DNA from: Haloplanus sp. XH21
GTDB lineage: Archaea; Halobacteriota; Halobacteria; Halobacteriales; Haloferacaceae
Direction of reading: 5' to 3'
DNA: 64,000 nucleotides
Assembly (NCBI RefSeq): GCF_023276355.1
Contig: NZ_JALLPL010000001.1
Span: forward strand, 1,488,001 to 1,552,000
This document shows, in pieces, positions 13,920 to 51,912 of this stretch; the stretch's first letter is position 1; each line of letters begins with the position of its first letter. The notes beneath the pieces were generated by a model, which was not told the origin of the DNA, did no database searches, and saw only the letters and a program-made list of their open reading frames with translations. Both the position numbers and the translations under genes were made by a program.

Positions 13920-14056
13920 ATGCTCTCGACCGTCGGCGCGACGACGCTCGGCTACGCCGCCGTCGGCGTCGGTCTCGGCACGCTCAGCGGGCTGACGCCC
14001 GGTCTCCACGCAAACAACTTCGCCCTGTTGCTCGCGTCCGTCGTGCCGTCGCTGCC
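13920..14056 (+). pseudogene. TctA-like transporter, 5' fragment left of the integrated element
   Basis: The first 45 codons of a tricarboxylate-transporter-type permease (MLSTVGATTLGYAAVGVGLG, then SGLTPGLHANNF) end where the integrated element begins. After 14056 the frame runs into element DNA and loses similarity. Joining 13920-14056 to 23457-24528 restores an uninterrupted frame of 1209 bases (402 residues), which shows the original gene was cut here. The last 52 bases are the left copy of the direct repeat, duplicated at 23405-23456. Confidence 0.85.
14005..14056 (+). repeat. attL: 52-bp direct repeat
   Basis: This 52-base sequence (starting tccacgcaaacaacttcg and ending gtcgctgcc) is identical to 23405-23456, and the bases on either side differ between the copies. 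It lies in codons 29-46 of the transporter gene. A repeat of this length at both ends of an element with an integrase gene beside one end is the normal footprint of site-specific integration by a tyrosine recombinase. Confidence 0.88.
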
Positions 14057-16452: not shown

Positions 16453-16460
16453 CATCAAAC

Positions 16461-16990
16461 TCAATGAGCGGCTCCATGATTCATGGTCGAACGTGTACGG
16501 CACAATGAAGTACCAGCTTCAAGGCTACGACTACGAATACATCGCTATTACTGCATCGACTGACAGTGCAGCAACGCCTCACACTCATCTCTTGATATGG
16601 GCCGACGATCCCGACAACGAGGTGTCTATCGGCGTGGCCCACTCAATCGTTCAAAGCCATGTTAACAATACGAAGGGTGCGTATGAGAAGGACCATCCAG
16701 TGCAGAAAGGGCAGAAAGATGCAGGGGTGGTGTTCCATGACCCGCCACGAGTCCTGATTGACGACGAAACTGCCCTGGAGGTATTCAAAACGCGGGGCAG
16801 AGAGGGCTTCCCGCTTGTGTCACCGATGCTGAAATACATGGCCCACCAACGACCTCACTGGGTGCTTAGGAACGTCTTTGATGGAGAGAGTGATGTCCAC
16901 GCGGATTCTGTCGACGTTGAAGGTGCCGCGGTTGAGTGGGCCTGTAATCACCACTGGATCAAATCAAGCGACGCTATCGAACTATCGTAG
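16461..16990 (+). pseudogene. Rep-like replication initiator, 3' part (IS-interrupted)
   Basis: This continues the 366-residue protein cut by the IS. It contains TPHTHLLIWAD, whose two histidines (about 231 and 233 of the rejoined protein) fit the HUH metal motif of rolling-circle Rep proteins. MLKYMAHQRP follows, with a tyrosine near 316 that could be the nicking residue. An ATG at 16505 could express a C-terminal product of about 161 residues containing both motifs, so some function might persist. The Rep assignment rests on these motifs and context only. Confidence 0.6.
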
Positions 16991-17202
16991 TTATTCCGTT
17001 GAAGGGGTGATCCGAACTCCGCGCAGTTCACTATGGGAATATTCACAAAATCAGTGTGACAGGGTCATCACCCCACCCCTGACACACCTGATATATCAGC
17101 CAGTCTCTCGCATGGTACGTCCTCCCGTGCGGAAATTCAGGGAGAACCTGTATCGGGTAGGGGCGGCGACCCCCTGAACCCCATTACTCCGTCAAATGGG
17201 GA

Positions 17203-18498
17203 TTACGCCTCACTCTCCCAACTGTCTATGATGGTAATGTCGTCGTCTCCAACGTGGACACCGACGTTCAATTCAGTGGAGGACATCTCATCTCCAGTCC
17301 GAATCTTGTGGTGGACACGACTGACTTCGTAGGTGATCGACTCATCGGACGCTGACACTCGCTCGTTGCACGTAGGACGTGCTTCTACGGTGTCGAAGGG
17401 AGCAATAGGCCCTCGCAGTAGTGTTTGCATCGTCCCCTCAGTAGTGCCTTCTATGGCCTGTTTGAGCAGACTCTTGGCCTCATTCCCAACTTCCTCTTTG
17501 CTCAATGCACCTGTTTTCGTTTCGGTGTTAGCGTGTAGCTCTCGTTGACCTGCACGTCGGTACAGAGGTTTGTGACGTGCTTTTGCTGTCGTGAACGTAT
17601 CAGTAGGGGAGTTGATCTCCAGTGGTCCTACGGAGAACTGTGATTCCTTCGCACCGCCTTTGACGACCTTTGTGTTGACTGGGCGTAGTTCTACGAGGGC
17701 GTCGTTGTTGACGATCTGGGTATCGCCACCGAGATAGTGAGCCTCGTGGCGTTGTTTCGCCCCTCGTGCAACGACGAGTCCGACTCCCTCATCGGTTGGA
17801 GTAAGCCATATTTCCACGTTACTCTTGTCTTTCAGCCATGAGGCGACATCAGCCAAGGTGTCTCTGTTCGCTTGGAATGTGTGGGGAGTATGGATATTGT
17901 CCGTTAGTGAAGCAACGAGATCACTGAATATCCGCGCTATTGGAAACGCATAGTCAGACGGACTCGCGTCGTCATTCGCAGATTCGACGTTACGAACGGT
18001 GTCACCTTCCTGAACGACATCTTCCAAGGTTTCAAGGAATACAACAGGGAAGGGAAGTTTCTCGTTGAGGTTCTCTGTGATATATGTCGCTACGTCCGTG
18101 ATTGTGGCGTCAGTAAATCGCTTGCTCGCAGGGATGTTATCAAGAAGATGTCCAGGCCCTTGGGCACGGAATCGCCACCGTTGTTCAGGCTCGTTTGAAC
18201 TGTTCCCAACGCCTGTTACATAGCCGCGGAATACGGTGGTGTAACGCTCCGTCTCGTAATCCCGAACGTCGAGACGGACAACGTCGAAGCCGTCCTGGTC
18301 CTCGGGTGCTAACCCATTGAAGGCATCAGTATAGTTTCCCCCACGGAACGGTGAGGCAAATTCTCCTTCGACGTATCGGGTGAAATCCAGATTCCCTTCT
18401 TTGCGGAGGTGGCAATCGACGTTGCCCGCAGGGAGTCGTGTCCCATTCACGTAGATGCGGCTATCTGTTGGAGTATCGGGGGCGTGTGATTCGACCAT
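17203..18498 (-). CDS. Possible virion or tail-hub-like protein
   Basis: The 431-residue acidic protein has no signal peptide or membrane helix. It begins with a beta-rich domain (RIYVNGTRLPAGNVDC), then RGYVTGVGNS and an alternating pattern ending in TITDVATYITENL. This order resembles baseplate-hub (gpD/gp27-like) proteins of tailed viruses: a name-bearing strand, a y-v-t-g-v segment, then an i-x-dv-x-x-yi helix. No other tail or capsid gene was recognised in the element, so the call is tentative. It is the last and largest gene of a minus-strand cluster, directly after the 41-codon gene. Confidence 0.35.
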   Translation of the reverse strand: MVESHAPDTPTDSRIYVNGTRLPAGNVDCHLRKEGNLDFTRYVEGEFASPFRGGNYTDAFNGLAPEDQDGFDVVRLDVRDYETERYTTVFRGYVTGVGNSSNEPEQRWRFRAQGPGHLLDNIPASKRFTDATITDVATYITENLNEKLPFPVVFLETLEDVVQEGDTVRNVESANDDASPSDYAFPIARIFSDLVASLTDNIHTPHTFQANRDTLADVASWLKDKSNVEIWLTPTDEGVGLVVARGAKQRHEAHYLGGDTQIVNNDALVELRPVNTKVVKGGAKESQFSVGPLEINSPTDTFTTAKARHKPLYRRAGQRELHANTETKTGALSKEEVGNEAKSLLKQAIEGTTEGTMQTLLRGPIAPFDTVEARPTCNERVSASDESITYEVSRVHHKIRTGDEMSSTELNVGVHVGDDDITIIDSWESEA

Positions 18499-18624
18499 CT
18501 ATTCACCACCCTCCGTATTGATGCGTCCAATCACGCTACCGTCATCCCCTACGATTCGACCACACTGGAGAACGATTGAATCCTCGGAGACATCATCAGG
18601 GTCGATCAATTCGTCGTCCGTCAT
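18499..18624 (-). CDS. Small acidic element protein (41 aa)
   Basis: The ATG at 18624 opens a 41-residue acidic protein (MTDDELIDPDDVSEDSIVLQ at the start). Its stop codon is immediately followed by the ATG of the 431-residue gene, and its ATG overlaps the stop of the 72-residue gene upstream. This tight packing on one strand is the main evidence that it is a real gene. No function is recognised. Confidence 0.55.
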   Translation of the reverse strand: MTDDELIDPDDVSEDSIVLQCGRIVGDDGSVIGRINTEGGE

Positions 18625-18839
18625 TCCCGTCCCCCGACGTATTGGTATTGATGGTCAGCAACTTCCTCGAATAGATCCTTGTGCTGTTCGACGTACTCAG
18701 AAGCAAGGATCCGAACGACAACCGACTCTGGGTTCGGAATATCCTCATCGGCTTCATCCTCGATATGGCGTCCAATCTCTCGGACTGTGGAGGCAATACG
18801 ACTCGGAACGCGAAGGGAATTCATGTCTTTTGTCCGCAT
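18621..18839 (-). CDS. Small element protein (72 aa), unknown
   Basis: This 72-residue protein has a charged, helix-prone composition (SRIASTVREIGRHIEDEA, then EYVEQHKDLFEEVAD). Its TGA overlaps the next ATG by four bases. The start may be the ATG at 18839 or the one at 18824. It fits the cluster of small minus-strand genes leading to the 431-residue protein. No family was recognised. Confidence 0.55.
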   Translation of the reverse strand: MRTKDMNSLRVPSRIASTVREIGRHIEDEADEDIPNPESVVVRILASEYVEQHKDLFEEVADHQYQYVGGRE

Positions 18840-19015
18840 ATTGAAGTGTGTATTTTATTGGGTTATTGAAATGAACGACCACGGCACGAGGAATACCCCC
18901 GCGCCGTTTTGCACAGGTAGACTGATTCAACATGACTAACACCGATCCCACGACCAACCTCACTGGCCAACCAGTCGTCACGCCCACCCTCCCACGGTGC
19001 CAGTCAGTTAATCAC

Positions 19016-19273
19016 CTATTTTGTCTGCTCCCGAAGATCGTAGCGACCCTCATCACTCATTCCAGAATCCGTAAATTCGGCGTGTGAACGCTGATAGACA
19101 TCGGCAACCGCATAAGCGATTGCTCCGCCGTAGGCACCGTCATTAACGTCTTCAAACTGCTCTGAGAGCGTCTGCAATTGGTCCTCGAAAGCCTCCATCG
19201 GATCAACGCCTGCATCAGCAGCACCTTCAACCACCGAATCAGGAAGTTCGTGGGAGTGAATAACAAGACGCAT
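19016..19273 (-). CDS. Small element protein (85 aa), unknown
   Basis: This 85-residue acidic protein contains LPDSVVEGAADAGVDPMEAF and an alanine-rich helix (YGGAIAYAVADVYQ). Its ATG shares a base with the stop region of the 144-residue gene upstream, indicating coupling. The alanine-rich GGAIAYAVA stretch recurs in the 49-residue gene of the same cluster as VAYGATISML, so the two may be related. No function is assigned. Confidence 0.55.
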   Translation of the reverse strand: MRLVIHSHELPDSVVEGAADAGVDPMEAFEDQLQTLSEQFEDVNDGAYGGAIAYAVADVYQRSHAEFTDSGMSDEGRYDLREQTK

Positions 19274-19707
19274 TATTCCTCACCTCGGACCATTGCTTCG
19301 TGGGTCGGGAAGTCGCTGATGTCACCTTCTGCTGCGGCTTCCGCTGCCTCGATGATTTTCTCCTCCTCAGCAGCGTCAGCGTCCTCCAGCAACTCACTTA
19401 GTCGGTCGTTGGATTGCCGTTCACGCTCACTGGTTCGGGCAGCTTCGATTCCGACGACGTAGTCTCGCAGATCCTCTTTCCCTATTTCTTCGACTTCCTC
19501 GACAATCTCGTCGCCGTACTCGCTAATCAGATACGCGACTCCGTAGAACGGATCACGATGATTCGTACTAAGACGCTCAAAGAAATCCCCTAATTCCCTG
19601 TCTACGTGTGGGTTCCCCGTATCGACAGGGAAGTCAGCGTTGGCCCGAATCTTGGTATCCCCGCGCCGATTCGTCTCCGTGTATGCAAACTCCAATGTCT
19701 CAGACAT
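19273..19707 (-). CDS. Element protein (144 aa), unknown
   Basis: The 144-residue, strongly acidic protein has a predicted beta start (LEFAYTETNRRGDTKIRA) followed by long charged helices (VVGIEAARTSERERQSND, then EEEKIIEAAEAAAEGD) that could form a coiled coil. It begins 6 bases after the stop of a 49-codon gene and abuts the 85-residue gene. No recognisable family. Its place in an operon with a possible virion protein leaves a structural or regulatory role open. Confidence 0.55.
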   Translation of the reverse strand: MSETLEFAYTETNRRGDTKIRANADFPVDTGNPHVDRELGDFFERLSTNHRDPFYGVAYLISEYGDEIVEEVEEIGKEDLRDYVVGIEAARTSERERQSNDRLSELLEDADAAEEEKIIEAAEAAAEGDISDFPTHEAMVRGEE

Positions 19708-19713
19708 ATCGTT

Positions 19714-19863
19714 CTAATTATCTTCGCTCAGGTAGTTGTTAGTCAGCATTGAGATAGTCGCGCCATAGGCCACATCATCCGTACCAAATGCCTGTTTTGC
19801 GACCTGATTCAGTCGTTCCCGCTCTTCCTCTGAAACCGTAATCGTCCTATTTCGAGTTCCCAT
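19714..19863 (-). CDS. Small ribbon-helix-helix-like protein (49 aa)
   Basis: The ATG at 19863 gives 49 residues starting MGTRNRTITVSEEERERLNQ. The order of a short basic beta strand followed by a Glu/Arg-rich helix and a second helix (ATISMLTNNYL) resembles ribbon-helix-helix DNA-binding proteins. It is the first gene of the minus-strand cluster and could regulate it. The size is below that of most annotation cut-offs. Confidence 0.5.
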   Translation of the reverse strand: MGTRNRTITVSEEERERLNQVAKQAFGTDDVAYGATISMLTNNYLSEDN

Positions 19864-20079
19864 TCTCGTCTATTGTTACGTCCTGCTGTCATATAAATCT
19901 ATCGAACACTTTGGGTATATTTCTACTATATCTGACCGTAAATATCTGTGAATATAGGTGAAAATTCTCACTTAGATCACGTCCTCGAACGTAGATTCAG
20001 CCTCTACAATCGTGATATGGGGGACCACACCCCAATCTATATTGTTATTTGAATATCATATTAAGCAAAGGTTCCAATA

Positions 20080-20220
20080 ATGTTCGTTCAACTGGTCGCA
20101 GGGTTGGCGTTCTGTGGATTCTGTTTAGTCTTCCTCTCATTCTTTACCTTGTCTGAACGCACAATGGCGGGAGGTCTGGGACTGATATTTCTTTCAATAG
20201 CCTTGATGTGGGCTGCCTGA
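20080..20220 (+). CDS. Small membrane protein (46 aa)
   Basis: The ATG at 20080 opens 46 residues with two hydrophobic segments (LVAGLAFCGFCLVFLSFF and LGLIFLSIALMWAA) separated by a short polar turn. This is a plausible two-helix microprotein. It is divergent from the minus-strand cluster. AT-rich sequence upstream (gaatatcatattaa near 20051) could be its promoter. Function is unknown. Confidence 0.45.
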   Translation: MFVQLVAGLAFCGFCLVFLSFFTLSERTMAGGLGLIFLSIALMWAA

Positions 20221-20417
20221 TGCTGCATTACTATACTGGAACGCCTGGCGTCAATCTCGCAACGGGGACCCCCTCCCCCTATGTACCAGACAACGTATGT
20301 GTCTCTAATCGTGACGGTGGGGTATGTAGTGGCTCTACCCCTCTGTTCAGGTTGTCCCTTTGAAAAAGTATCAGTAAACGGACTACTAAGTGTGTGGCTG
20401 TCCTCGGTGCAATCGCA

Positions 20418-20777
20418 ATGTCCGAAGCAAGCCAGGACACGACTGGTGAACAGCTTTCGACTGTGGTCAGCGATATTGACGACGACAGTAAGCAACTGAT
20501 CCGCGAGAAAGCACGGTGCCTGCCCGTGGATGACGACGATAGGGTCATCGACAACACGGACGACATGGTCGACCTGTCGGACGCTGCCATGTCCTCGATG
20601 CTGTTCGACGCCGTCGTCGCGGATGTCCACGGGCTTTCTGACAGCACCATCGTCACGGTGGAGTTTCAGAAGGAAGTCGAGTTTCCCAAGGGTGATGGGT
20701 GGGTTAGTTTCTCCGTCAGGTTCGAGAAGCCGACCGAGACGGTCGAGACGATGACCGTCGAGGCTTCGCTCTACTAA
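20418..20777 (+). CDS. Hypothetical element protein (119 aa)
   Basis: This 119-residue acidic protein starts MSEASQDTTGEQLSTVVSDI and has a C-terminal beta-rich part (TVEFQKEVEFPKGDGWVSFS, then VRFEKPTETVETM). The base composition is closer to the chromosome than neighbouring element genes, and the codon choice supports coding. The ATG at 20418 was preferred over a GTG at 20394. No family was recognised. Confidence 0.55.
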   Translation: MSEASQDTTGEQLSTVVSDIDDDSKQLIREKARCLPVDDDDRVIDNTDDMVDLSDAAMSSMLFDAVVADVHGLSDSTIVTVEFQKEVEFPKGDGWVSFSVRFEKPTETVETMTVEASLY

Positions 20778-21131
20778 CTGACGGCTGTTTTCCTGATTCT
20801 ACTGTTTCAACCGTCGCCGTTAGAGTCTTGCTTACCACGGAGTGAATTGAGCGGAATTAGTAGGGCAACTGCTACTGCTTTGAGGCAATCTGCCGCTGAA
20901 ACAGTATAGAATCTGGTAGGTTCGACCCTCCATTTATAAAAAGCATCCTCGAAACGGGCGGATTCAGACCAAATCTGGCACCACACTCAGAGATAAATTT
21001 GTTTAGTTGTGCTACTGGGACTACCGCAGTCGTCTCAGATTGGGGGCACCTCAATAGCGAGGTTCAAGATGGTTTTCACTTTCACCCAACTCTGGTACAT
21101 TTTATTATTCACAACCCGCAATTCGGCCCTA
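20778..21131. other. Intergenic stretch before the Abi-like gene
   Basis: No coding frame was convincing in these 354 bases. The last 35 bases contain an AT-rich box (attttattattc near 21100) about 27 bases before the ATG of the next gene, a likely TATA box for it. The rest is AT-rich and unremarkable. Confidence 0.4.
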
Positions 21132-22049
21132 ATGAGCGACGATAGGTATACCCCCTTAATTGATCGACAAAGAGAACCTGAGTCTCGGATTCATGAAGAG
21201 CTAACACGCCCTGCGCGAGAACGGCTCGCACAGATCACTGAAAGCCGTGATAAGGATGATAGAGAACGCGCTTTCAAAGAGACGATGAAACTTATCGGAC
21301 GAACGCCTGTCCTCAAATGTCTCTCAGGAAATACAGGTACTCAATTGAGACTGACGAAGTCCCATCGTGAATTTATTTACAACGGAGAGACAGTCCCTGT
21401 GCTCACGTACATTGAACAACTGTATCTCTCATATAACCGATTCAAAAGAAAATCCGCAGATGCAATCCAGTCTGACAGAGGACCTGTGTCTGAATATTCT
21501 GTTTTCGAGGAGATTTGGCAGGTTCTTGTCACAGAAGGGTTACTATGGGAAATAGAATGGGCAGATAAGGGAGGTGTGATTCAATTTACTCCCCTGGCGT
21601 CTGAGGCGATGGCAGATATGGATTCCAAGATTCAGGCCCTTTCACAGAATGAGCCGTGGGAGGACGCACTTGAAGGGTATAACGCCGCTTTCGAGCGGTA
21701 TCTAAACGGTGACTTTGACGACACGTTAGTCACCAAGCTGTACAACAGCATAGAGGAGGTGTTACAGACGATCTGTGTAGACTTGGAGGATTGGACAGAC
21801 GACCGCGACAGGAGCCACGGCTACTATCTTGGCATCCTGAACGAGAAGGACGTGTACAACGCTAATGGTATTACTGCGCCCGAATTGAACGAATTACTCG
21901 GGGCGCTTGAAAAGATGGTCAGCAAGGTCGGTAATGATCGAAAACAGCGTCATGCTTATCACGACCGTGCATACTGTACTCTCCTAATCCACCAAGTCGG
22001 CGCGTACCTCTATTTCCTGATTAGCCGTTACGAGGATTTCAATAATTAG
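21132..22049 (+). CDS. Abi-like protein with possible HEPN-type C-terminus
   Basis: This 305-residue protein has an N-terminal charged region, a middle section with winged-helix character (SVFEEIWQVLVTEGLLWEIE) and a C-terminal helical domain (about 205-300). That domain carries TKLYNSIEEVLQTICVDLED and, near the end, RKQRHAYHDRAYC. The order resembles the abortive-infection C-terminal (Abi_C, HEPN-fold) domain, where an Arg-x(4-6)-His pair acts in RNA cleavage. The fit is suggestive, not conclusive. As a singly transcribed gene beside the integrase it has the position of an accessory cargo gene. Confidence 0.45.
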   Translation: MSDDRYTPLIDRQREPESRIHEELTRPARERLAQITESRDKDDRERAFKETMKLIGRTPVLKCLSGNTGTQLRLTKSHREFIYNGETVPVLTYIEQLYLSYNRFKRKSADAIQSDRGPVSEYSVFEEIWQVLVTEGLLWEIEWADKGGVIQFTPLASEAMADMDSKIQALSQNEPWEDALEGYNAAFERYLNGDFDDTLVTKLYNSIEEVLQTICVDLEDWTDDRDRSHGYYLGILNEKDVYNANGITAPELNELLGALEKMVSKVGNDRKQRHAYHDRAYCTLLIHQVGAYLYFLISRYEDFNN

Positions 22050-22153
22050 TATTTAAATCGTTATTCAGGGCCACAACGCCAATCCGACGGCACCTTATAC
22101 ACGCCATCTACCAAGTTCTCTCCCCCCCGAGATCGCGGTGGTGGACATGTCGT

Positions 22154-22222
22154 GTGCGTGGGTCGGCAGCGGAGGCTATCGTGTGGCCCTTGGCCACCGA
22201 TAGCCGAGAACCGACCCCGCAC
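22154..22222. terminator. Nested inverted repeat between convergent genes
   Basis: An outer stem pairs 22154-22166 (gtgcgtgggtcgg) with 22211-22222 (ccgaccccgcac) with one bulge. An inner hairpin at 22174-22205 pairs GGCTATCG with CGATAGCC and TGGCC with GGCCA. It lies between the ends of the Abi-like gene and the integrase gene, which face each other. A bidirectional terminator is likely. A structured replication or recombination site is an alternative. Confidence 0.5.
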
Positions 22223-22257
22223 CGACTGTCCATTTCATCCTTACACTCAGGTGTTCG

Positions 22258-23286
22258 CTACGTGAAGAAGTTTCTCCGCTGCTCTGCTTTCCCTGCCTCA
22301 CTCCGTTGGTCATAATGTGTGTCTAATATATCACCCGCGACATCGACGCGGTCGGAGACTGCCCGCTTGGGGACATCTTGGGAAAGTAAGTCTGTGATCC
22401 GTCCACGTCGAATATTGTGAGGCATCGTCGTTGAGGGACATTCATCACGTCCATAGACGCGCCGTTTTTCGCAACTGGCAATGTCCTCGTCGTGGGGACA
22501 AACGTTCCGTTGGTAGCACGGCAGCTGTGCGAGATACGCCCAGTTACGTAGCGTGGACTTGTCGGGGCGTCCATGTTCCGTCGTCAGTAGTGGCTCACGG
22601 CCATACTCGTCGGTGACGGGGATGCGGTGCAACTGAATGTACTGGTCGATAATCTCCAGTAACTGTTCCGTGACCGCAATGTAGCGTTCCCCGCGTTCTT
22701 CGTTTTTCAAGGTCGTCCCTTCGTCGGGGCGATGATGAAGTTCGATCCACTGGTTATCTTCATCAACGTCATCGATATCGAGGCTATGAACTCCTCCGAG
22801 ACGACACCCAGTCTGCCACAGCAATTCAAAGACGACGTGTGCTTTCTCCCCGTAACGGTTTGCACGGAGTGCATCGAGGGTGTCCTTGGCATCTTCGGAG
22901 TCGATGATTTCTTCTCTATACCGTTGCTCACGGTCGACTGTCGGAAGCACCATCCGCTCTGCTAAGGTTGGTTCGACGGCGTCTATCGAGGCGGCAAAGC
23001 GAAGAAAAACACGAACCGTACAGAGACGAGTACGGATCGTTAACGGACTCACGCCCTTGGAACCATCCTTCTGTGTATAGTGATCGCGTAGGAAGATACG
23101 GTACTCCTGGAGATGTTTCCCACCTAATTGATCCAGCGTCTCAACGCCGTTCTCATCACACCACTCTGCGAACCGTTCAAGGCGACATTTCTGTGACCGA
23201 TAGGTGCTATCGGCTAATTCGTTCGCACGAGTTTCTAAGTACAGTTCAACTGCGTCCGTCGGGGTGGTCGAGTCGTGTTCGCTCAT
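22258..23286 (-). CDS. Tyrosine recombinase/integrase
   Basis: The 342-residue protein has an N-terminal SAM-like core-binding domain (AVELYLETRANELADSTYRS) and a catalytic domain. The catalytic Arg is in LLWQTGCRLGGVHSLDI, the His-x-x-Arg box is PHNIRRGRITDLLS, and the nucleophile Tyr is in ILDTHYDQRSE close to the end. An insertion with CYQRNVCPHDEDIASCEKRR may bind zinc, as in other haloarchaeal integrases. The gene lies 118 bp inside the right direct repeat and most likely made the integration. The ATG at 23286 was chosen; one at 23307 is also possible. Confidence 0.92.
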   Translation of the reverse strand: MSEHDSTTPTDAVELYLETRANELADSTYRSQKCRLERFAEWCDENGVETLDQLGGKHLQEYRIFLRDHYTQKDGSKGVSPLTIRTRLCTVRVFLRFAASIDAVEPTLAERMVLPTVDREQRYREEIIDSEDAKDTLDALRANRYGEKAHVVFELLWQTGCRLGGVHSLDIDDVDEDNQWIELHHRPDEGTTLKNEERGERYIAVTEQLLEIIDQYIQLHRIPVTDEYGREPLLTTEHGRPDKSTLRNWAYLAQLPCYQRNVCPHDEDIASCEKRRVYGRDECPSTTMPHNIRRGRITDLLSQDVPKRAVSDRVDVAGDILDTHYDQRSEAGKAEQRRNFFT

Positions 23287-31655: not shown

Positions 31656-34600
31656 CAGAGAACGTCCTCGTCGACGAGTTTCGGCACGATTTCGGCGTCG
31701 GCCAGCGGCGTGATGTTGATCGCGACGCCGTGGTTTGGGATCGGATGGTACCCTTGCGTCGTGATCTCGGCGAGCGCGCGATCACGCCACGTCGACGGGA
31801 GCGCCGACGCGAGCGTCTCGCAGTGATCGCTGATCCCCTCCGCGAGTGCGGTGTACTCGTCGAATCCGGTCGCGAGCGCCGCGAGTCGGGTCGCCGCGCC
31901 GTCCTGCAAGCCGTCCATCGGATCGCCGTCCGCGTCCAGGAACGCCGTCCCCTCGCGCCCGTAGTAGTAGGCCATGAAGAGGATCCCGTTGCTCGCGTAG
32001 TGCGTGGATCCGACGAGGTCGTCGTAGTACTCGAAGAGATCGTAGTGATGGGCTTCGACGGGCTCCTCGGGTGGCTTCGCGTACGCCTCACAGGCGCGTT
32101 CGAGGGCGACGAGCGCGTCGATCCATTCCGCCCGTTCCGACGCGACCTGCTCCCAGAACGTCGGCGAGAAGTTGTCCGCGAACCACTCGTCGGACTGCCG
32201 GTCGCGGAGGTCGTCGAGGACGCCGAGTCGTTTCTCGGTCGCGTCTCGGAACGACGCGACCATCGACGCGAGGTCGGCGGCGAGCGCGCGGTGATCCGCG
32301 TCGATATCGCGCGGCGTCGTCGCGCTGAGGTCGTGTAGTACGTCCTCGAAGACCGCGATCTGTTCGAGCGCACTCGCGTAGCGATCGGCGGCGTCGGCGG
32401 CGTCGCCCCGCTCGCTCGCGCTCAGTGATTCGTCGCGCCGGCGACGGTCCGCGGCCGACCGTCGCTCCCGAAGGGCCGCGTTCCGCGGTTCGAGATACCG
32501 GTTCGTCAGGCGGTCGAACAGTCCGCTGTCGAGGCCGTGGTAGTCGACGAGACACGCGAATCCGACGCCTTTGGCGTCGGGGACGAGCCGTTCGGTCGTG
32601 AGACGCCAGACGATCGGCGTCTTCTCCATCGTCTCGACGTGGTACTGGAAGAAGTCCTCGGCTAGCCACGCCCGGAGGTTCGGATAGGCCTCGTCGGTGG
32701 CGGACTCGGCACCGAGGATGTCGTCGACTTCGATCAGGCGCTCGTCCGCAAACTCGCCGTAGGCGTCGTGGAATCGGTCGACGACGCGGTCGAGGATCGT
32801 CGTCTGGTCGGTCGCCGTCTCCTGAATGGGGACGATACCGTCGTCCGCAGCACGGACGGCAGCCATCGCGAAGTGATGGACGAGGCGTTTCACGTCGGAG
32901 TCGAGCGTCGCCGGTGGTTCGGGAACGTCGTCCGGATCCGGCACCGTTCGGTCGGCCGGGTCCTCCGCGGTCCGGAGGAAGATTTCGGCCTTCACGCGGT
33001 CGTTGATCCCGTCCGGTAGCCCGAGCGCGTCCGCGACGATCGAATCGGCGTGGTCGGACAGCCGTTCGAGTTCCCGGGTCTGCTCGCGGCGGCGGCGTTC
33101 GACCGCTCGTGCAGCCTCGCTGATCGACCACGCCGGGTCGATGTCCGCTCTGTCCACGTCGGGGATTTCGACCGGTGTCCGACCGCCAGAATCGTCGTAG
33201 AACTGATCCGCGGCCGGGTTCGGAACGAGCGCCGGGCCGACGTAGCCTGGATACCGCGGATCGCTCGCCTTCTCGCTCGCGACGAGCGCGTACTGCTGTT
33301 TCGCGATCGCTTCGAGGTCGTCTCTCTCGGTCAACGCGTCGTGCCACGGGATGCGCCCGACGACTTCGATCTGCCAGTCGCGCTCCGGCGTGAGCGAGAG
33401 AAAGAGTCCGTGGTACACGGTCGAATTGAGCACGCACAGCAACAGCCAGGGCGAGTACCCCTCGGTCGGGAACAGCATCGACCCCGTCACGTCGAACACG
33501 GCACCGGGGACGTAGCCGAACCGACGGCCCGTTCGCTTGATGTACGACCAGGTGAGGCCGTCCCGCATGTAGAACTCGTCGTTCCGGATGACGGAGTTGG
33601 GGTAGCGAGCGAGCCGTTTCCCGTCTTCCGACCAGTCGATGGTTGTCGTCTGTTCGGGGAGCATCCAGGCATCCGTGCCGCCCTTCGCGAACGGCTGGAA
33701 CGCCTCGCCCCGGGACTCCCAGTGTGCGCGAACGAATCGGCGGTTGTTCCCCGTCTGGAGCCCCGTTTTGATTTCTGCGACCCGCTCCCCGTCGATGTCC
33801 GCGATGTCCGGGCCGAGTTTTAGCGCGCTCTCGTGGAGGGATCGAATCTCCGGTGGCGTCGAGTAGGTGAGCGGCGTGCCGGGGACGGTCGCGAACTCGT
33901 CCAGTTCGACGGTGTAGTATCGCTGTACCGCACACTCCGCGCCGGCCACGACGCTCGCAAAGACGGACTCTTTCTGTCCGCGGTCCACGTCGTGCAGACG
34001 GATGAACTCGCCGCGCATGTCCGGCGACGTCGTCTCCGCCGACGTTCGCACCACCGTCCCGACGGTTCCGACTGTCGCGTTGTCGAGGATGCCGTACCCG
34101 TATTCGGCGAGGAAGTCGAAACCACCCTTCGAGCCGACGAAATCCTCGCGGAACTCCTGAAACGAGCGTTTGAACAGCAAGGTCCACGGCACCAGCATCC
34201 CGATGCGGCCGTTCTCTTTCACGAGCGCGTCACACGCCTCGAAGAAGGCGATGTAGAACTCGGGGTAGTACCGGTATCGCTCTTCGAGATACTGGCGGAT
34301 GGTCTCGGGCATCCGCTTGCCGCTCCCGTAGGGCGGGTTCATCAGCGCCACGTCGTAGTCCTGTGCCAACACGTCGAGCAAGCGAACGAAACTCCGCAGG
34401 TCCTTCGCCAGGAAGGAGTCCTCGTCTCGGTGCGCCGAAATCGCGTCGCGAAGGCTGTGGAGCACGCTCTGCAGCGAGCGGTCAGCGGTGAAGTCTTCGG
34501 CGAACGTCAACTGCGTCCCGTCATCGCCGTCGAACAGTTCGTCGAGCGTGCCTCGAACGTCGAGCAAGCTCCCGAGGCCGTGGACCTCCTCGAACGCACT

Positions 34601-35878
34601 GAGAACGTCCGCGAGCGTCTCCGCCACGTCGTCTCGGCCGTCGCTGACTTCCTCGAACACGGCGTCGACGCCGTCCAAGTCGGCGATCCGTGCGTCGGCA
34701 CAGACGATCCCTGGCGACGGGAGTTCGAAGTCCTCGCCGCCGGCAGCGCGCGCTCTGGACCGCGCCTTGAGGTAGAGATTGAACGTGGCGAGTTGGCACG
34801 CGCGCATATCGAGATCGACACCGTAGAGGTTCTGCTCCAGGATCCGGCGGGGGATCGTCGCGGGATCGAGATCCGTCTCGCGGCGCCAGATGCGTTCGAG
34901 CACGTCGAAGGCGTAGAGCAGGAAATGCCCGCTGCCACAGGCCGGATCGATGACCCGGAGCTCCGAGGGATGGTCGAACGCCGTCGGGTCGCCCGTCTCC
35001 TCTGACGGGACCAGGTAGGTGCAGAAATCGGCTATCTCGGGCGCGTCATCCATCGACGCCGGACGGGTTCGCCGCTCGCGTGCCGACAGCTCCGCCTGGG
35101 TTGCGACGACATCTTCGACCTCCCCTTTTCCTTCGAGATAGAGTTTGCCGAGGGCGTTGTCGGTGAGCATGCGCACGACCCAGTGGGGCGTGTAAAACTG
35201 GTTCGCGACGCCGAGGTCGCTCGTTCGGATCCCCCCGGATCGCGTTCGCTCGCGGACGCTCCCGAGGACGTCGAGGTTGTAGTATTCGTAGACCCAGCCG
35301 AGGACGTCGTCGGCACGCCACACGGGGTCGGGGACCTCGTCCAGCAGCCTGCAGAGCGCTTCGAACGTATCCTCGTCGGGGTCGATCAGGCTGTAGGCCG
35401 TGGCGCGGTCGAAGAGCAACTCCAGTTCCTCGGCGAGGTCGTCGCACGCGTTTCGGTAGGCTTCGAGGACAGCCTCCCCTTCCAGCATGAACTCCTCGGT
35501 GACGAGCGTCTCGGCGGCCGGCGTCAGTCCGTCGTCTCGGAACACCGTCACCTCCTCGTCGACGAAGCCACGGACCTCCATACACCGGAGCGCAGCCAGG
35601 CGGTTGACGACCGTGTAGCCGACGCCGGCGACGTACTGTGCGACCGCCTCGTCCCAGTCTGCCCCATCGACGGCTTCGAGTTCGATGGCGTCGACCACCT
35701 GCTGTGCGTCGTCGTCGACGGCCGACAGTTCGGCCGGTTCGTCGTCCAGCCCTAACTGCGAGAGCTGATAAGTGACGTTGGCCTCGACACGCTCTCGCAT
35801 CTCCGTGACGACGTCTTCGAGATGTTCGCGTTCCGACTCGCCGAGCTGCACCTTTCGCGGGGAGGACGATCCCGTCAT
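31655..35878 (-). CDS. pglX: Orphan PglX-like adenine-specific DNA methyltransferase
   Basis: The 1407-residue protein has a helical N-terminal region, FYTPHWVVRMLTDN, the SAM motif IDPACGSGHFLLYAFDVLE (Asp near 310), and the N6-adenine motif ALMNPPYGSGKRMP (Asn near 514). A long C-terminal part with target-recognition-like TWSYIKRTGRRFGYVPGA follows. Size and order match PglX of BREX systems, especially haloarchaeal type-5 loci, and the Eco57I-type methylase family. In BREX, PglX methylates a non-palindromic site and works with BrxC, PglZ and BrxB. None of these is in this window, so it stands alone between two tRNA-Arg genes. No nuclease motif was recognised. Confidence 0.75.
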   Translation of the reverse strand: MTGSSSPRKVQLGESEREHLEDVVTEMRERVEANVTYQLSQLGLDDEPAELSAVDDDAQQVVDAIELEAVDGADWDEAVAQYVAGVGYTVVNRLAALRCMEVRGFVDEEVTVFRDDGLTPAAETLVTEEFMLEGEAVLEAYRNACDDLAEELELLFDRATAYSLIDPDEDTFEALCRLLDEVPDPVWRADDVLGWVYEYYNLDVLGSVRERTRSGGIRTSDLGVANQFYTPHWVVRMLTDNALGKLYLEGKGEVEDVVATQAELSARERRTRPASMDDAPEIADFCTYLVPSEETGDPTAFDHPSELRVIDPACGSGHFLLYAFDVLERIWRRETDLDPATIPRRILEQNLYGVDLDMRACQLATFNLYLKARSRARAAGGEDFELPSPGIVCADARIADLDGVDAVFEEVSDGRDDVAETLADVLSAFEEVHGLGSLLDVRGTLDELFDGDDGTQLTFAEDFTADRSLQSVLHSLRDAISAHRDEDSFLAKDLRSFVRLLDVLAQDYDVALMNPPYGSGKRMPETIRQYLEERYRYYPEFYIAFFEACDALVKENGRIGMLVPWTLLFKRSFQEFREDFVGSKGGFDFLAEYGYGILDNATVGTVGTVVRTSAETTSPDMRGEFIRLHDVDRGQKESVFASVVAGAECAVQRYYTVELDEFATVPGTPLTYSTPPEIRSLHESALKLGPDIADIDGERVAEIKTGLQTGNNRRFVRAHWESRGEAFQPFAKGGTDAWMLPEQTTTIDWSEDGKRLARYPNSVIRNDEFYMRDGLTWSYIKRTGRRFGYVPGAVFDVTGSMLFPTEGYSPWLLLCVLNSTVYHGLFLSLTPERDWQIEVVGRIPWHDALTERDDLEAIAKQQYALVASEKASDPRYPGYVGPALVPNPAADQFYDDSGGRTPVEIPDVDRADIDPAWSISEAARAVERRRREQTRELERLSDHADSIVADALGLPDGINDRVKAEIFLRTAEDPADRTVPDPDDVPEPPATLDSDVKRLVHHFAMAAVRAADDGIVPIQETATDQTTILDRVVDRFHDAYGEFADERLIEVDDILGAESATDEAYPNLRAWLAEDFFQYHVETMEKTPIVWRLTTERLVPDAKGVGFACLVDYHGLDSGLFDRLTNRYLEPRNAALRERRSAADRRRRDESLSASERGDAADAADRYASALEQIAVFEDVLHDLSATTPRDIDADHRALAADLASMVASFRDATEKRLGVLDDLRDRQSDEWFADNFSPTFWEQVASERAEWIDALVALERACEAYAKPPEEPVEAHHYDLFEYYDDLVGSTHYASNGILFMAYYYGREGTAFLDADGDPMDGLQDGAATRLAALATGFDEYTALAEGISDHCETLASALPSTWRDRALAEITTQGYHPIPNHGVAINITPLADAEIVPKLVDEDVL

Positions 35879-47036: not shown

Positions 47037-47570
47037 TCAGCTTTCTAATGTCTTACTTTTCACCAACAGTTGTGATTCCTCCTCTTTCGCATCACTTTCG
47101 TTCTCAAATCCAGTAAATAGTACCTTACCGCTTGAAAAAATGAGGATCACACCGTTAGATCCCTCAGTTCGGTAAATTAATCCGGGAAACTGTTCTGGTT
47201 CATACTCTACATTCTCCAATCCAAGTTCAACTGCAAGAGTCTGTAAATCAATATGACTCTCAAAATCAGACATAAACACCATATATTTGACCGAAAAGGA
47301 GTGTTCTGAGAGAGCGCCGTTCGAAACCTCAGACAAATAGTCCGTGAATTTTTCACGAACACGATATAGCTGGTCGAAGGAGGTTGCACCCGGAATAGTG
47401 TAACTTCCAGCCGGATAGACCATTATAAGTGGGGTCTCAGAATCAAAGCGTAAATCTAATTGACCGGGTTTTAATTGGCAAATATCCGTTCCGAGATCGT
47501 GATGGAGTTGTTCTATATCGAGTTCGTCAAAATTCAACTCGCCTGTTGCCACGATATTGACTATCTCCAT
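47037..47570 (-). CDS. Divergent TATA-binding-protein (TBP)-like protein
   Basis: The 177-residue protein has the length and two-repeat design of archaeal TBP. The second repeat is well kept: LENVEYEPEQFPGLIYR (118-134) and VILIFSSGKVLFTGFENESD (141-160), including the intercalating phenylalanine and the SSGK turn. The first repeat keeps MEIVNIVATGELNFDELDI but has CQLKPGQLDLRF and MVYPAGSYTIPGA in place of the QFPG and FSSGK blocks. It therefore looks like a specialised TBP, not a housekeeping copy. It follows the type IIG enzyme by 10 bases on the same strand and would be co-transcribed. Confidence 0.82.
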   Translation of the reverse strand: MEIVNIVATGELNFDELDIEQLHHDLGTDICQLKPGQLDLRFDSETPLIMVYPAGSYTIPGATSFDQLYRVREKFTDYLSEVSNGALSEHSFSVKYMVFMSDFESHIDLQTLAVELGLENVEYEPEQFPGLIYRTEGSNGVILIFSSGKVLFTGFENESDAKEEESQLLVKSKTLES

Positions 47571-47580
47571 CCTACGTCGT

Positions 47581-50500
47581 TCACCACGTTTCTAAGAAGT
47601 CATTTAGGACAGAGACATCTTGTTCGTTAAGATCATACACATCCTGCAAGACCGCTTCATCCAACTCTGACTGCAAGTTTTCGGCTTCCTCCTCAAGTCT
47701 TCCAATACGCTCTTCATCGGATTCATATTCGGTCATCAGAGCCAGAACATCTTCTTTTGTAGGCACTGCCATATTCATAACCTCGGGACGACCGAGACGC
47801 TTGTCCTGCGCTTTGAGGAGCTTGAATACGAAGTCTCGAACCTGTTCGTCTCCGAAGTTTATCGTGTGCCCACGCTTCATCACGACCTGATAGATTCTCT
47901 CAGAGTTCACCTCCATCTTATCGTTAGTCCGAATTGGATCTTGACGGTAGTCGTCATCCGAGAGGTCAACAGATTTAGCGAGGTTAAGGATAGTCCACTC
48001 TCGCTCGTAGGATGGTAGATAGTTGAAAATGTCTTCTATCTTCACCTGCAGTTCTGTTATCGCCTCTATGGTGTTCCGAATGTCCTTCGCAAGCGTTGAA
48101 ATCCGCTCCTCATCTTTCGGAAGAACAACGGGGAGCGGTTCCAAGAACGTCTTCCCATACGAGTAGAACTTGCTGTTGAAAATAAAGCTGATATGCTTAT
48201 GATAGAATTCGGTAACACGCGAGTTCAGAAGTCCTCCGAAATACAGCGTATCGGAAGCTGCTGGTGCATACTCATCACGTAGACGAAGACCGTACCCACC
48301 CGCTGTGCCGCCCCCGACGAAATAATAGGTCCCATCGGTATCTGGGACGAACGACGGTTCTTGACGGAGGACACCGAGCATGATTTTGTCGGATTCGAAT
48401 TTCTCAATATTCTGTTTCCGACCGAAGGCCCACCATTGCTCTACATTTCGCCAACTACCTCCGTCTCGCTCTTTGAGCCTATCTTCGTGGTCTGAGAAGA
48501 ACTTCCATGCCAGAGGGAATTCATCCCGAAGGGTCTCCTTTGGTAGCAATTCAGCTTCTTCGCCATGAATTTCGTAGGGGAATACCACCCAGAGATTCTG
48601 CCAATCAAACTTCCATCGATGAATCTCATCACCTTTCAGCACTCGTCGAAGAATCCCTTTCTCGATTTTTCTGAATTCATCTGATCCGCCGGGTTTGAAC
48701 TCTACAATACCCTCCTCCTCGGCTTCCCGGACTGTCCCGATGTAGACGCTGTCAGCGCTTGTTTGCATTCCGACAAAGATGTCCTTCGACACATCATTCA
48801 GACGCAAATCTGCCGCTCGTTCTATTTTATCGAAGACTTCCCTTTCGTCCGCCGGCATCGGCTTCCAGATCGCCGGAGTACCTTCGTTGTCTTTGGCTAA
48901 CTGGGATTGTGAGTATTCAAATAACTCATAGTCTTCTGCATTTTCAGGTGTTCTCCACCTATCTAGATGCCGGATATCTTCCAAGACATCGTCGTTCTTG
49001 TCGGAAAACCGGGCACACCGAACAGAGTTGTCTTCTACCGTTCCCTCCCGGTCAATGGTGAAGATACACGGATAGGGAGTTGGAACATCGAAGATATCTG
49101 CTTCCTTGAAATCAATTAGGTTGGTGATCGGCTCTTCAACCAGCTGGTCTCGAATTTCCTTGGCGTAATCTGCCATTACCAACCGATCGGGACAGATGTA
49201 CGCCAGCTTCCCGTCATCGGTTAGCCAATCAACCCCTCGCTCAATGAACGGAACATAAATGTCGAAATTTTTGATGGCGCTCGCATAGTGGGTAGAATAG
49301 GTTTCCTTCATACCGCTAAGGTTTTGGATCCGGACGTATGGCGGGTTTGCTACCACTACGTCAAACTCCACATCGTCCTTAATTCGGTCTACGGCGTTTC
49401 GGTCTTCAATGAAGGCTTTCGCACGACCGTTGTAGTCCGCGAATTGTTCAAGACCCGACTGCATCGTATTCGCATCGGAACTCCCCGACTTCTGCTCTCG
49501 GAGGGTCGGTGTGAGCGTGTCCGCAACGTGAACCTCAAACCCATCCATCGTGTAGTACGGGTCTTTCTCGGTGACTTTGTCGTAGAGGTCGATAGTCCGG
49601 AACAGCAGATTGATTTGCGTAATGTGTGCCGCGAAGGGATTGATGTCAATACCATAGACGTTCTCTTCTATTCGTTCGAGAATAGTGCGAGCTTCATCGG
49701 CATCCAATCCATGGACGCTAGTCTTGTTGAACTTCCGAAGAAAATGCTGGATAAGGCGCTCGGTGACTTCCGTGAGGAAAGTTCCACTCCCGCAGGCCGG
49801 GTCAAGAACCTTCTTCCGTCCGATTCCTTCATTTGGACGGTAGTCTATCGAATCGAGCATGAACTGTACGACTTCGAGCGGGGTGTAGTACTCCCCCAGT
49901 TCCTTGCGTTCCTGCTTTGGAAGGTAGTCCTCGTAGACGTGACCGAGAATATCCCGATTGACGTACTCGAAGTTGAAACGGTTGAGTCGCTTGAGGACTT
50001 GCCTCAGCGAGTAGTTAAGATCGTCCTCGAGATCACGCTGTTTTCGCCTCTCAGTTTTCGAGAACTGCCCACGCTTGTCCTTGGCGACCCACCACCAGTC
50101 GAAGATACCGAGTTCGTAGAGGTCGGGATAGTGGTCGTCAATGCGGTCGTAGGTATCCACGAGTGCGTCGAGATACGGGCGAGCTTTGTCACGTTCCAGT
50201 TCATCTGCCATCCCCCGAGAGGAGAGCCGAGTATGGTCTACGATTTCCTTGTCTTCGGCAATTCGGGCAAACAGCGATCGATTCAGGATGATGTATGCGG
50301 TTTCTCGACAGAACACCTCTTTCGCATTGTCGCTCCGTCCGGTGTACTCTCGCCACTCTTTCCAATCGGGGAACGTGGATTCTAAGAATTCCTTCGGATA
50401 TGAGTCATCCTCGCGGTTCCGGTAATCCTCGAAGAATTCTTTGAGAACGCTGGTAAGTTCGTCAAGCGAGTCCTTGATAGCATCCAAGAATAGTTCGTAC

Positions 50501-51078
50501 CCTTCGTCATCTGTGCCCGGTTGGTACTGAACGGGCACCTCTTGGTGCGTCTCACGGAAGTACTCGGCGTCATCGAAGTCCACGTACCGACTGCGATGGA
50601 GGTGTTCGAGTTGGTTGAGGGCGTTTTGCTGTCCCGTAGATAGGTTCTCGAAGTCAGCCGTTGCTACTGTATCTACGTCGAACCCGCCGATACTGCTAAT
50701 CGTGCTGTCTTCGGAGATGTACTCGTAGAGTCGGAGGTCGTGTCCGTTTGTGAGAATTCCGTATTTCGCGCTTCCGACGCCGTTCATGTACGTCTCTAAC
50801 TGTTCTACGTCATCGAGGTCGAGGTTGTGGGAGGGGCGTTTCGTCTCGCAAACGATGACAGGGAATGGCGGTTCGCTGTCGTCGTAGAACAGCAGGTCTT
50901 TTCGGTCGTCCTCGAAGTTGATGTGTCCCTCGCCTTCTGTCCGAGACCAATCCAGCGCGTCGGTAAACAGGTGATCTACCAGCGAATATCGGAAGTCGAA
51001 TTCGCTTCCCTCTTGACGAATCTCGTCGTGGATCGCTGTAATTGCTTGATGAAGGTCACGGAGGGACGCATCGGACAT
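47581..51078 (-). CDS. Type IIG-like restriction-modification enzyme (Eco57I-type methylase)
   Basis: The 1165-residue protein joins several parts. An N-terminal nuclease-like domain contains PFPVIVCETKRP, with a Glu-x-Lys pair at 78 and 80 and upstream acidic residues, a PD-(D/E)xK layout. An N6-adenine methylase core follows with LDPACGSGTFLTEV near 426, GIDINPFAAHI and VVANPPYVRIQNL near 577. Last comes a C-terminal target-recognition region of the TaqI/Eco57I kind. Such single-chain enzymes both methylate and cut DNA. It starts leaderlessly from a TATA box 25 bases upstream and leads an operon with the TBP-like gene. Its codon use is less GC-biased than the host's. Confidence 0.85.
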   Translation of the reverse strand: MSDASLRDLHQAITAIHDEIRQEGSEFDFRYSLVDHLFTDALDWSRTEGEGHINFEDDRKDLLFYDDSEPPFPVIVCETKRPSHNLDLDDVEQLETYMNGVGSAKYGILTNGHDLRLYEYISEDSTISSIGGFDVDTVATADFENLSTGQQNALNQLEHLHRSRYVDFDDAEYFRETHQEVPVQYQPGTDDEGYELFLDAIKDSLDELTSVLKEFFEDYRNREDDSYPKEFLESTFPDWKEWREYTGRSDNAKEVFCRETAYIILNRSLFARIAEDKEIVDHTRLSSRGMADELERDKARPYLDALVDTYDRIDDHYPDLYELGIFDWWWVAKDKRGQFSKTERRKQRDLEDDLNYSLRQVLKRLNRFNFEYVNRDILGHVYEDYLPKQERKELGEYYTPLEVVQFMLDSIDYRPNEGIGRKKVLDPACGSGTFLTEVTERLIQHFLRKFNKTSVHGLDADEARTILERIEENVYGIDINPFAAHITQINLLFRTIDLYDKVTEKDPYYTMDGFEVHVADTLTPTLREQKSGSSDANTMQSGLEQFADYNGRAKAFIEDRNAVDRIKDDVEFDVVVANPPYVRIQNLSGMKETYSTHYASAIKNFDIYVPFIERGVDWLTDDGKLAYICPDRLVMADYAKEIRDQLVEEPITNLIDFKEADIFDVPTPYPCIFTIDREGTVEDNSVRCARFSDKNDDVLEDIRHLDRWRTPENAEDYELFEYSQSQLAKDNEGTPAIWKPMPADEREVFDKIERAADLRLNDVSKDIFVGMQTSADSVYIGTVREAEEEGIVEFKPGGSDEFRKIEKGILRRVLKGDEIHRWKFDWQNLWVVFPYEIHGEEAELLPKETLRDEFPLAWKFFSDHEDRLKERDGGSWRNVEQWWAFGRKQNIEKFESDKIMLGVLRQEPSFVPDTDGTYYFVGGGTAGGYGLRLRDEYAPAASDTLYFGGLLNSRVTEFYHKHISFIFNSKFYSYGKTFLEPLPVVLPKDEERISTLAKDIRNTIEAITELQVKIEDIFNYLPSYEREWTILNLAKSVDLSDDDYRQDPIRTNDKMEVNSERIYQVVMKRGHTINFGDEQVRDFVFKLLKAQDKRLGRPEVMNMAVPTKEDVLALMTEYESDEERIGRLEEEAENLQSELDEAVLQDVYDLNEQDVSVLNDFLETW

Positions 51079-51100
51079 GGATACGGATTCTGTTCAGCAT

Positions 51101-51110
51101 GATATAAAGA
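51101..51110 (-). promoter_or_regulatory. TATA box of the restriction-modification operon
   Basis: On the minus strand the sequence tctttatatc is centred about 27 bases before the ATG at 51078. This is the spacing for an archaeal leaderless mRNA. It is a consensus-like TATA box, which is of interest because the operon also encodes a TBP homologue. Confidence 0.6.
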
Positions 51111-51230
51111 TTCATCCACCGGAAGGAGTCATCGAAGCCGTATACCCCGTACTTGTATCGTGTTTTTGTCCCGGCAGTTTTGAAACGAGTTACTCACCGT
51201 AGGCATCGACAAATCACAACAGAGTCCATT

Positions 51231-51443: not shown

Positions 51444-51781
51444 ATTTTGATTGGCAGCGCTTCCTGCTGCTTGGGCCGTTAGCGCCTTCCATACGGCATT
51501 TCTCAGGATAGTGTGATAAACGAAATCCCACGGAGGGTGGTTAGCACTAACGAACGGTTAGGTGAGATAAGAATGATCGTTTTACCCCGGTCAGGAGATG
51601 GATTTCGAGAGGTATAATAAAGATATGGGCAAACGATATCTCATCGCCCCTCTTTTCGACATAATAAGTTCAATTCAACCGCGACACTCGCCTCTATTCA
51701 GGATACTTCCGAACGAAGTTAGGTGGCTGGGGAGTTCTCAGCCCCTAATGCGCCACGGCAAGAAACCGTGAGCGCTGTGGA
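51444..51781. other. AT-rich stretch between small ORF and tRNA-Ile
   Basis: These 338 bases hold no convincing gene. They include the region just past the 3' end of tRNA-Ile, where island integration is common. A stem, cacggcaagaaaccgtg, lies near 51754-51770 and could form a hairpin (cacgg/ccgtg). No complete copy of the tRNA end was seen. Confidence 0.35.
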
Positions 51782-51855
51782 TGGGCCAACACGGATTTGA
51801 ACCGTGGACCTCCCGGTTATCAGCCGAGCGCTCAACCTGACTGAGCTATTGGCCC
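51782..51855 (-). tRNA. tRNA-Ile (anticodon GAT)
   Basis: On the minus strand the gene begins GGGCCAATAGCTCAGTCAGG and ends TTGGCCC plus A, with paired 7-base acceptor arms. The anticodon arm CTCGG-CTGATAA-CCGGG gives anticodon GAT. The T arm is CACGGTTCAAATCCGTG. No intron. The low-GC restriction-modification island lies directly beyond its 3' end. Confidence 0.95.
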
Positions 51856-51912
51856 AGGTGAGCGCATCAAATGCTTGCGTGGTCGGTTGTTTAAGCGTTT
51901 CCGTTCGGCCCG

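Follow-up and report, generated by a model that had tools for sequence, protein, structure and literature searches.

A TATA-binding protein homologue encoded behind a type IIG-like restriction-modification enzyme belongs to a defence-linked lineage of haloarchaeal TBPs

We analysed a stretch of 64,000 nucleotides from Haloplanus sp. XH21 (contig NZ_JALLPL010000001.1, positions 1,488,001 to 1,552,000; hereafter the window), in which the gene for a homologue of the TATA-binding protein (TBP), P0001, lies directly behind the gene for a type IIG-like restriction-modification (R-M) enzyme, P0002. P0001 falls within a haloarchaeal TBP lineage of its own, one dedicated to defence, and we regard the linkage of this lineage to defence genes as real and general with near certainty.

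A TBP gene in a low-GC island

The two genes are encoded on the minus strand, P0001 (47037-47570, 177 residues, ATG start) beginning 10 nucleotides after the stop codon of P0002 (47581-51078, 1165 residues). They are the only called genes of more than 100 residues in a low-GC island, the GC content being 44-53% across the pair versus about 66% in the flanks. A tRNA-Ile gene (51778-51856, minus strand) is located 700 nucleotides upstream of the P0002 start. An earlier note on this DNA, made from the letters alone, had described the 10-base spacing, the common strand and the lower-GC island by tRNA-Ile, all verified here by coordinates and GC content, as well as a nuclease-methylase fusion of 1165 residues, which Pfam and PADLOC confirmed. 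An att-type direct repeat was sought at the tRNA-Ile locus; none was found, and integration via such repeats was dropped. The features of the pair are as follows.

47037..47570, (-): TBP-like protein P0001 of the defence-linked (TbpC-like) lineage (Pfam PF00352, E 7e-32; AlphaFold2; Foldseek; tree)
47181..47207, (-): second-repeat stirrup EYEPEQFPG, residues 122-130 of P0001, predicted TFB contact and intercalating Phe (sequence; conservation in 112 relatives)
47581..51078, (-): type IIG-like R-M enzyme P0002, 1165 residues (Pfam; PADLOC)
50704..50916, (-): N-terminal nuclease-like domain HSDR_N_2 of P0002, residues 55-125, PD-(D/E)xK-like D61...E78-T-K80 (Pfam; motif)
49777..49803, (-): methylase motif I of P0002, DPACGSGTF, residues 426-434 (motif)
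49336..49347, (-): methylase motif IV of P0002, NPPY, residues 578-581 (motif)
48127..48642, (-): possible TaqI_C-like specificity domain of P0002, residues 813-984 (20.0 bits, the Pfam cut-off of 26.5 not being reached)
51098..51116, (-): probable core promoter of P0002, GATGAATCTTTATATCATG (TATA 24 nucleotides before the ATG; leaderless geometry; common to the orthologues in genomes G308 and G076)

P0002 gave Pfam matches above cut-off to Eco57I (1.9e-31), N6_Mtase (6e-24) and HSDR_N_2 (2.8e-6) and a PADLOC match to REase_MTase_IIG (E 4.7e-74). By its architecture it is a type IIG R-M enzyme, with nuclease, methylase and specificity region in one chain, and is predicted to cleave and methylate DNA. 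None of the PADLOC models matched P0001.

In P0001, Pfam matched both repeats of the TBP family, the first with 37 bits and the second with 75 bits. The second repeat is intact and contains the motifs EPEQFPGLIYR and LIFSSGKVLFTG. The first repeat has a shortened stirrup and lacks both intercalating Phe residues, one being deleted and the other replaced by Tyr, so that P0001 keeps the second pair of the four intercalating Phe of TBPs and has lost the first. The AlphaFold2 model is a complete TBP saddle with a predicted local distance difference test (pLDDT) value of 95.6. With this model, the 44 best Foldseek matches in the PDB were all TBPs, and only TBPs were retrieved at E<1e-9; template modelling (TM) scores of 0.78-0.88 were obtained against 1ais (the archaeal TBP of a TBP-TFB-DNA complex), 1cdw and others. 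The loss of the Phe pair thus sets P0001 apart from canonical TBPs, not from the TBP fold family. In TBP-TFIIB/TFB complexes the second-repeat stirrup holds the B factor, and the stirrup residues of EYEPEQFPG are presumably the equivalents of yeast E186, E188 and F190; the TFB-contact Glu residues are present in P0001 within EYEPEQF.

A TBP lineage beside restriction and BREX genes

P0001-like TBPs were searched in 391 Halobacteria genomes. Besides the canonical TBPs, well over 100 proteins were better matches to P0001, and 120 loci were taken for neighbour analysis, in which genes were called, the neighbours of the TBPs were clustered and cluster representatives were identified with Pfam and PADLOC. 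Recurrent neighbours were an Eco57I/type IIG-type methylase, a BrxHII-type SNF2 helicase, HsdM, HsdS and HsdR, and further BrxC, PglX, PglZ, BrxB, BrxL, GmrSD and a MADS mad8-like protein. Defence profiles were derived from these recurrent neighbours and the same profiles were applied to controls. A restriction or BREX (bacteriophage exclusion) gene was found within 2 kb of 126 of the 144 non-canonical TBPs and was the direct neighbour of 103 of them, in contrast to 0/9 canonical TBPs and 0/25 TFB genes within 5 kb. In these loci, genes of similar size lying over 4 kb away from any TBP were adjacent to a defence gene in 26 of 260 cases (10%), compared with 72% for the TBPs. Of the in-clade exceptions, most likewise stand beside R-M genes, which the profiles had failed to recognise: type II N6/N4 methylases, a mad2-like methylase, a NotI-like nuclease, a DUF1156/McrBC locus, and a viral N4-cytosine methylase with Eco29kI. 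At the DUF1156/McrBC locus (L096, 1-13151), a DUF1156/DUF499 system, a TBP and McrBC genes lie together on a stretch of plasmid and may represent an uncatalogued defence cluster for which the TBP is the marker.

For a less circular count, all matches to the TBP, Eco57I, N6_Mtase, PglZ and TFIIB families were listed by coordinates in ten genomes picked as TBP-rich. In this census a methylase domain lay within 6 kb of 28 of 36 non-canonical TBPs versus 0 of 15 canonical ones, the random expectation being about 1.4% for each. Viewed in reverse, such a TBP stood beside 7/7 HsdM-like and 14/36 Eco57I-domain genes. The genome of Haloplanus sp. XH21 itself encodes six TBPs, two of them canonical and standing alone and the other four all in defence operons, i.e. 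the type IIG pair, a methylase-TBP-helicase-TBP operon (C1:244550-253271) and a type I operon TBP-hsdM-hsdS-hsdR-mad8 (around C1:953500). Census and controls reject a chance pairing of TBP and R-M gene, the outcome that the earlier note had allowed for if the gene were an ordinary TBP paralogue and such linkage were missing from other genomes. The recurrent TBP-like partner with the same first-repeat Phe loss that it had envisaged exists and is more widespread than proposed, the unrelated partners of the lineage comprising type IIG and type I enzymes, methylase-helicase operons, BREX, type II enzymes and viral R-M genes.

The arrangement of the genes varies. The TBP gene is the last gene with a 4-nucleotide overlap, the first gene, or divergent; start-stop overlaps with helicase or methylase genes are common, and plasmids or low-GC islands harbour many of the loci. 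Of the called proteins, none was seen to join a TBP to a nuclease or a methylase. Two TBPs are present in 22 of the 120 loci. The operons of L176 (7580-8128 and 11091-11648) and L179 (2821-3369 and 6310-6858) encode two TBPs with complementary losses, TBP1 keeping the first-repeat Phe pair and lacking the second and TBP2 showing the reverse. TBPs of 274-277 residues occur in L141 (8121-8945, plus strand) and L165 (10479-11312, minus strand), each adjoining a second TBP; their N-terminal extension looked winged-helix-like by eye, and Pfam detects no domain in it. Two viruses carry TBPs of the lineage: in HRTV-9 (L099, 1235-5531) the virus's own type IIG gene lies 16 nucleotides upstream of the TBP, and in HJTV-2 (L100, 4965-8242) the TBP adjoins the virus's own N4-cytosine methylase and Eco29kI.

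Phylogenetic analysis placed the defence-linked TBPs on one side of a branch from the canonical and other archaeal TBPs. The SH-aLRT (Shimodaira-Hasegawa-like approximate likelihood ratio test) support of this branch was 89 in a tree of 137 rows, and bootstrap/SH-aLRT support was 100/99.9 after removal of long branches, a random 42 being taken. P0001 falls opposite the canonical haloarchaeal TBPs (TbpE type) across the 100/99.9 branch, which bears out the separate clade that the earlier note had envisaged. Partner type is clustered on the TBP tree (41 changes versus 84.7 when shuffled, 0/200), and Mantel tests correlated TBP distances with helicase distances (r 0.78, p 0.0002, n 21) and HsdM distances (r 0.75, p 0.01, n 9), the correlation being weaker for the Eco57I-type enzymes (r 0.38, p 0.0002, n 36). 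TBP subclades have thus co-diversified with their partners. P0001 itself pairs in the tree with the TBP of G308 (Natrarchaeobius chitinivorans), to which it is 64% identical, the enzymes being 77% identical.

Residue conservation was counted over 112 TBPs of the defence-linked lineage. The second repeat hardly varies (E131 in 109, E133 in 110, Q134 in 108, F135 in 106 and F152 in 104), and DNA-contacting positions of the first repeat are changed in recurrent ways (F59Y in 90, L57T in 81, F42Y in 59); position 64 has turned from I/V to Y or F in 111. No first-repeat and two second-repeat Phe residues were found in 91 of the 112, compared with two and two in 12/12 canonical TBPs. Together with the tree, this signature rejects P0001 as an ordinary TBP paralogue. 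Judged from these residues, the first repeat has acquired a new specialisation (F/L/F to Y/T/Y) and the putatively TFB-recruiting half is retained. The initial description of a clear second and a degraded first repeat therefore holds for the intact second repeat and for the lost Phe pair, but 'degraded' is the wrong word for the lineage because the first repeat is conserved in its altered form across relatives.

Promoters and the role of the lineage

The methylase-helicase-TBP operon opens with a conserved 63-residue gene, before which AAGTAAAGACTATA is found at core-promoter distance. Of the 16 loci that reach to the operon start, 15 have this sequence, each once, with 0-3 mismatches over 17 nucleotides; in the exception, L159, the helicase gene is broken. 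An exact 14-mer of it was found in 19 of the 391 genomes. Twelve of the places are directly at methylase-helicase-TBP operons, four more are in genomes with the operon split over contigs and three are unexplained, a reversed control pattern giving about four matches. On this distribution, AAGTAAAGACTATA is a core promoter private to an operon encoding its own TBP. The strictly conserved promoter AGTCTAAGTAAAGACTATAT (L133, about 13990-14014, and 14 further loci), which precedes this 63-residue gene of no assigned family, is mostly an inverted repeat over the region of the B recognition element (BRE) and TATA box. Among its variants, one arm of the palindrome is missing from L154 and carries a mismatch in L148, the TATA side being kept in both. 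An AbrB-like appearance of the 63-residue protein, noticed by eye, was unsupported by Pfam and AlphaFold2 (pLDDT 52.9).

On the sequence evidence, we consider with moderate confidence that P0001 is a system-specific basal transcription factor, i.e. a transcriptional controller of the neighbouring system. In the proposed mechanism, the retained second half of P0001 would recruit TFB and grip the upstream half of the TATA box, the re-specialised first half would shift promoter choice, and P0001 would bring TFB and RNA polymerase to the promoters of the restriction or modification system with which it travels, or would hold them away. Controller (C) proteins are small helix-turn-helix regulators encoded beside bacterial type II R-M genes, and P0001 would be their counterpart with a TBP fold. 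Possible benefits would be expression in a new host, methylation timed before restriction, and expression during infection. Binding to TFB, a different choice of promoters and control of the adjacent operon are predictions of this model, as are the sign of the effect (activation or repression) and the benefit. A dedicated controller would explain the unrelated enzymes, which would share the need to balance the expression of modification against that of restriction, the variable position of the TBP gene (as expected of a regulator), its facultative presence, the kept TFB contacts and the private promoters. The earlier note had offered such a controller beside a DNA-bending specificity helper for the enzyme and a sensor or decoy; the controller fits best of the three, and is favoured over an enzyme subunit because the TFB-contact half is kept and the enzymes served are unrelated.

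Several observations weigh against a dedicated controller, the first group of them from the P0002 family. A neighbouring TBP was found at 3 of 17 P0002 orthologues, the other 14 being without one. The TBPs of the family come from two subclades, those of the window and G308 versus that of G228, the latter being encoded in convergent orientation. P0002 therefore does not need the TBP, and the pairing is facultative and arose more than once. The extended promoter GATGAANNTTTATRTCATG precedes the enzyme gene in XH21 and G308 and also in the TBP-less G076 (enzyme 78% identical), so that the P0002 promoter does not require a TBP encoded in cis and its specificity for TBP-carrying loci is unsupported; at more distant P0002 orthologues GATGAANNTTTATRTCATG was looked for and was absent. 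For the methylase-helicase operon, no recurrent sites of the private 14-mer were found elsewhere in the 391 genomes, so no wider regulon was seen, and the 63-residue first gene may itself regulate the operon, its promoter overlapping an inverted repeat.

More broadly, and with slightly less than even confidence, we propose that the basal transcription machinery has a second branch used for defence alone, which operates in haloarchaea, on their plasmids and in some of their viruses. In this branch, TBPs with one re-specialised half would form subfamilies, each matched to one kind of restriction, methylation or BREX system, some operons having two complementary half-altered TBPs, and would time the expression of modification and restriction.

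Among the alternatives, a decoy or dominant-negative TBP would join TFB at TATA boxes of virus or host and initiate poorly, shutting down the transcription of an invader or sensing viral TBP, with the enzyme as an additional, independent layer within the island. A TBP altered in one half but retaining its TFB contacts could indeed compete for TFB, and some haloviruses encode TBPs of the lineage beside their own R-M genes. We nevertheless find a decoy unlikely: its autonomy would make it needless for TBP subclades to track enzyme type, the viruses themselves carry the same TBP/R-M pairing, and non-canonical TBPs without an R-M neighbour are rare. It is more doubtful still that these TBPs are independent cargo serving mobile islands or plasmids, brought next to R-M genes by a shared habitat. 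Such cargo would account for the many loci on plasmids or low-GC islands and for the facultative pairing in the P0002 family, but not for direct adjacency in 72% of the TBPs versus 10% of like-size genes at the same loci, for subclades that follow the partner type, or for the frequent start-stop overlaps with helicase or methylase genes.

A role of the TBP as a structural partner, i.e. the DNA-bending or specificity subunit of the restriction enzyme, fits poorly and is very improbable. The tight operon linkage, including the 4-nucleotide overlaps, and the co-diversification could be read in this way; against it stand the unrelated enzymes served (type I, IIG, BREX PglX, type II, SNF2 helicase), the 14 of 17 P0002 orthologues that lack a TBP beside them, the near-invariance of TFB-contact residues that would be useless to a subunit, and the lack of fusions to nuclease or methylase among the called proteins. 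Decay into non-functional copies, to which the lost first-repeat Phe pair and the option 'nonfunctional' given for TbpC (PMC4230888) might point, is scarcely credible, as the same changes recur across genera (F59Y 90/112, L57T 81/112, position 64 111/112), the second repeat is nearly invariant and the frames are intact in nearly all matches listed.

TbpC and known defence systems

The pattern of Phe loss was previously described for a TbpC-like clade of 21 homologues, in which the N-terminal pair is lost and the C-terminal pair kept (Becker et al., 2014; PMC4230888). TbpC was easily deleted and not transcribed in Halobacterium, its role being left as 'nonfunctional or very specialised' in that study, in which restriction genes are unmentioned; deletion of tbpC had no apparent phenotype (PMC2121645). 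The P0001 lineage has the same pattern and is likewise dispensable and multi-copy in haloarchaea, and the linkage to defence systems is added here to a clade whose role was open there. In strain NRC-1, the TBP P0003 (VNG_RS11040, pNRC200), which is not among the rows of the tree, has the TbpC signature and the operon type of the helicase subclade. It is the last gene of an operon comprising a gene like the 63-residue one, a methylase, a BrxHII helicase and the TBP (L291, pNRC200 102993-121487: 484-9540), in which ISH27-2 interrupts the methylase gene and the conserved promoter is lacking. If VNG_RS11040 is tbpC, as its signature suggests, the broken operon and the missing promoter would probably explain the reported lack of a tbpC transcript. 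TBP is not mentioned in the archaeal R-M and defence surveys PMC10609329, PMC6471742 and PMC12988326, and no earlier report of a TBP-defence linkage was found in R-M surveys, a defence preprint, or halovirus and TBP papers, subscription papers being outside the scope. Relative to the literature that could be searched, the defence link of this TBP lineage appears new.

P0001 resembles C proteins in being encoded by a small, facultative regulator gene next to restriction and modification genes, and differs from them in its TBP rather than helix-turn-helix fold and in a lineage that also accompanies type I, BREX and methylase-helicase systems; it is not a C protein, though by analogy it may work like one. 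TBP components have been reported in the TOTE and TALON conflict systems (Aravind, 2022, cited in PMC12458937), TALON being bacterial and largely from Chloroflexota. These systems share with P0001 a TBP-family protein in an antiviral operon, but they are built on a TPR-OB/CSD protein, whereas the P0001 operon has neither TPR-OB/CSD nor the YprA helicase; TALON has not been described together with type IIG, type I or BREX components. P0002 is like Eco57I-like type IIG enzymes in its nuclease-like N-terminus, N6-adenine methylase and weak TaqI_C-like match, and differs in the TBP gene added behind it. In BREX type 5 of haloarchaea, relatives of P0001 stand beside pglX, pglZ and brxC/brxB, whereas no PglZ, BrxC or BrxB is encoded beside P0001.

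The linkage provides a TBP clade whose function was open in 2014 with a role that is concrete and can be tested, offers in these TBPs a marker by which uncatalogued defence systems of archaea could be found, and suggests why haloarchaea hold so many TBPs, 28 of the 36 non-canonical copies in the ten-genome census being near a methylase. If the proposed mechanism holds, a general transcription factor would have been turned into a dedicated switch of defence genes, and archaea would solve the problem of 'methylate before you restrict' via TBP.

Elsewhere in the window, a second Eco57I-domain methylase (about 34136-34834, minus strand) of PglX-like size lies in a 1412-residue open frame of normal GC, the 6 kb on either side being free of TBP genes, and positions 14000-23000 form another stretch of low GC content (48-57%).

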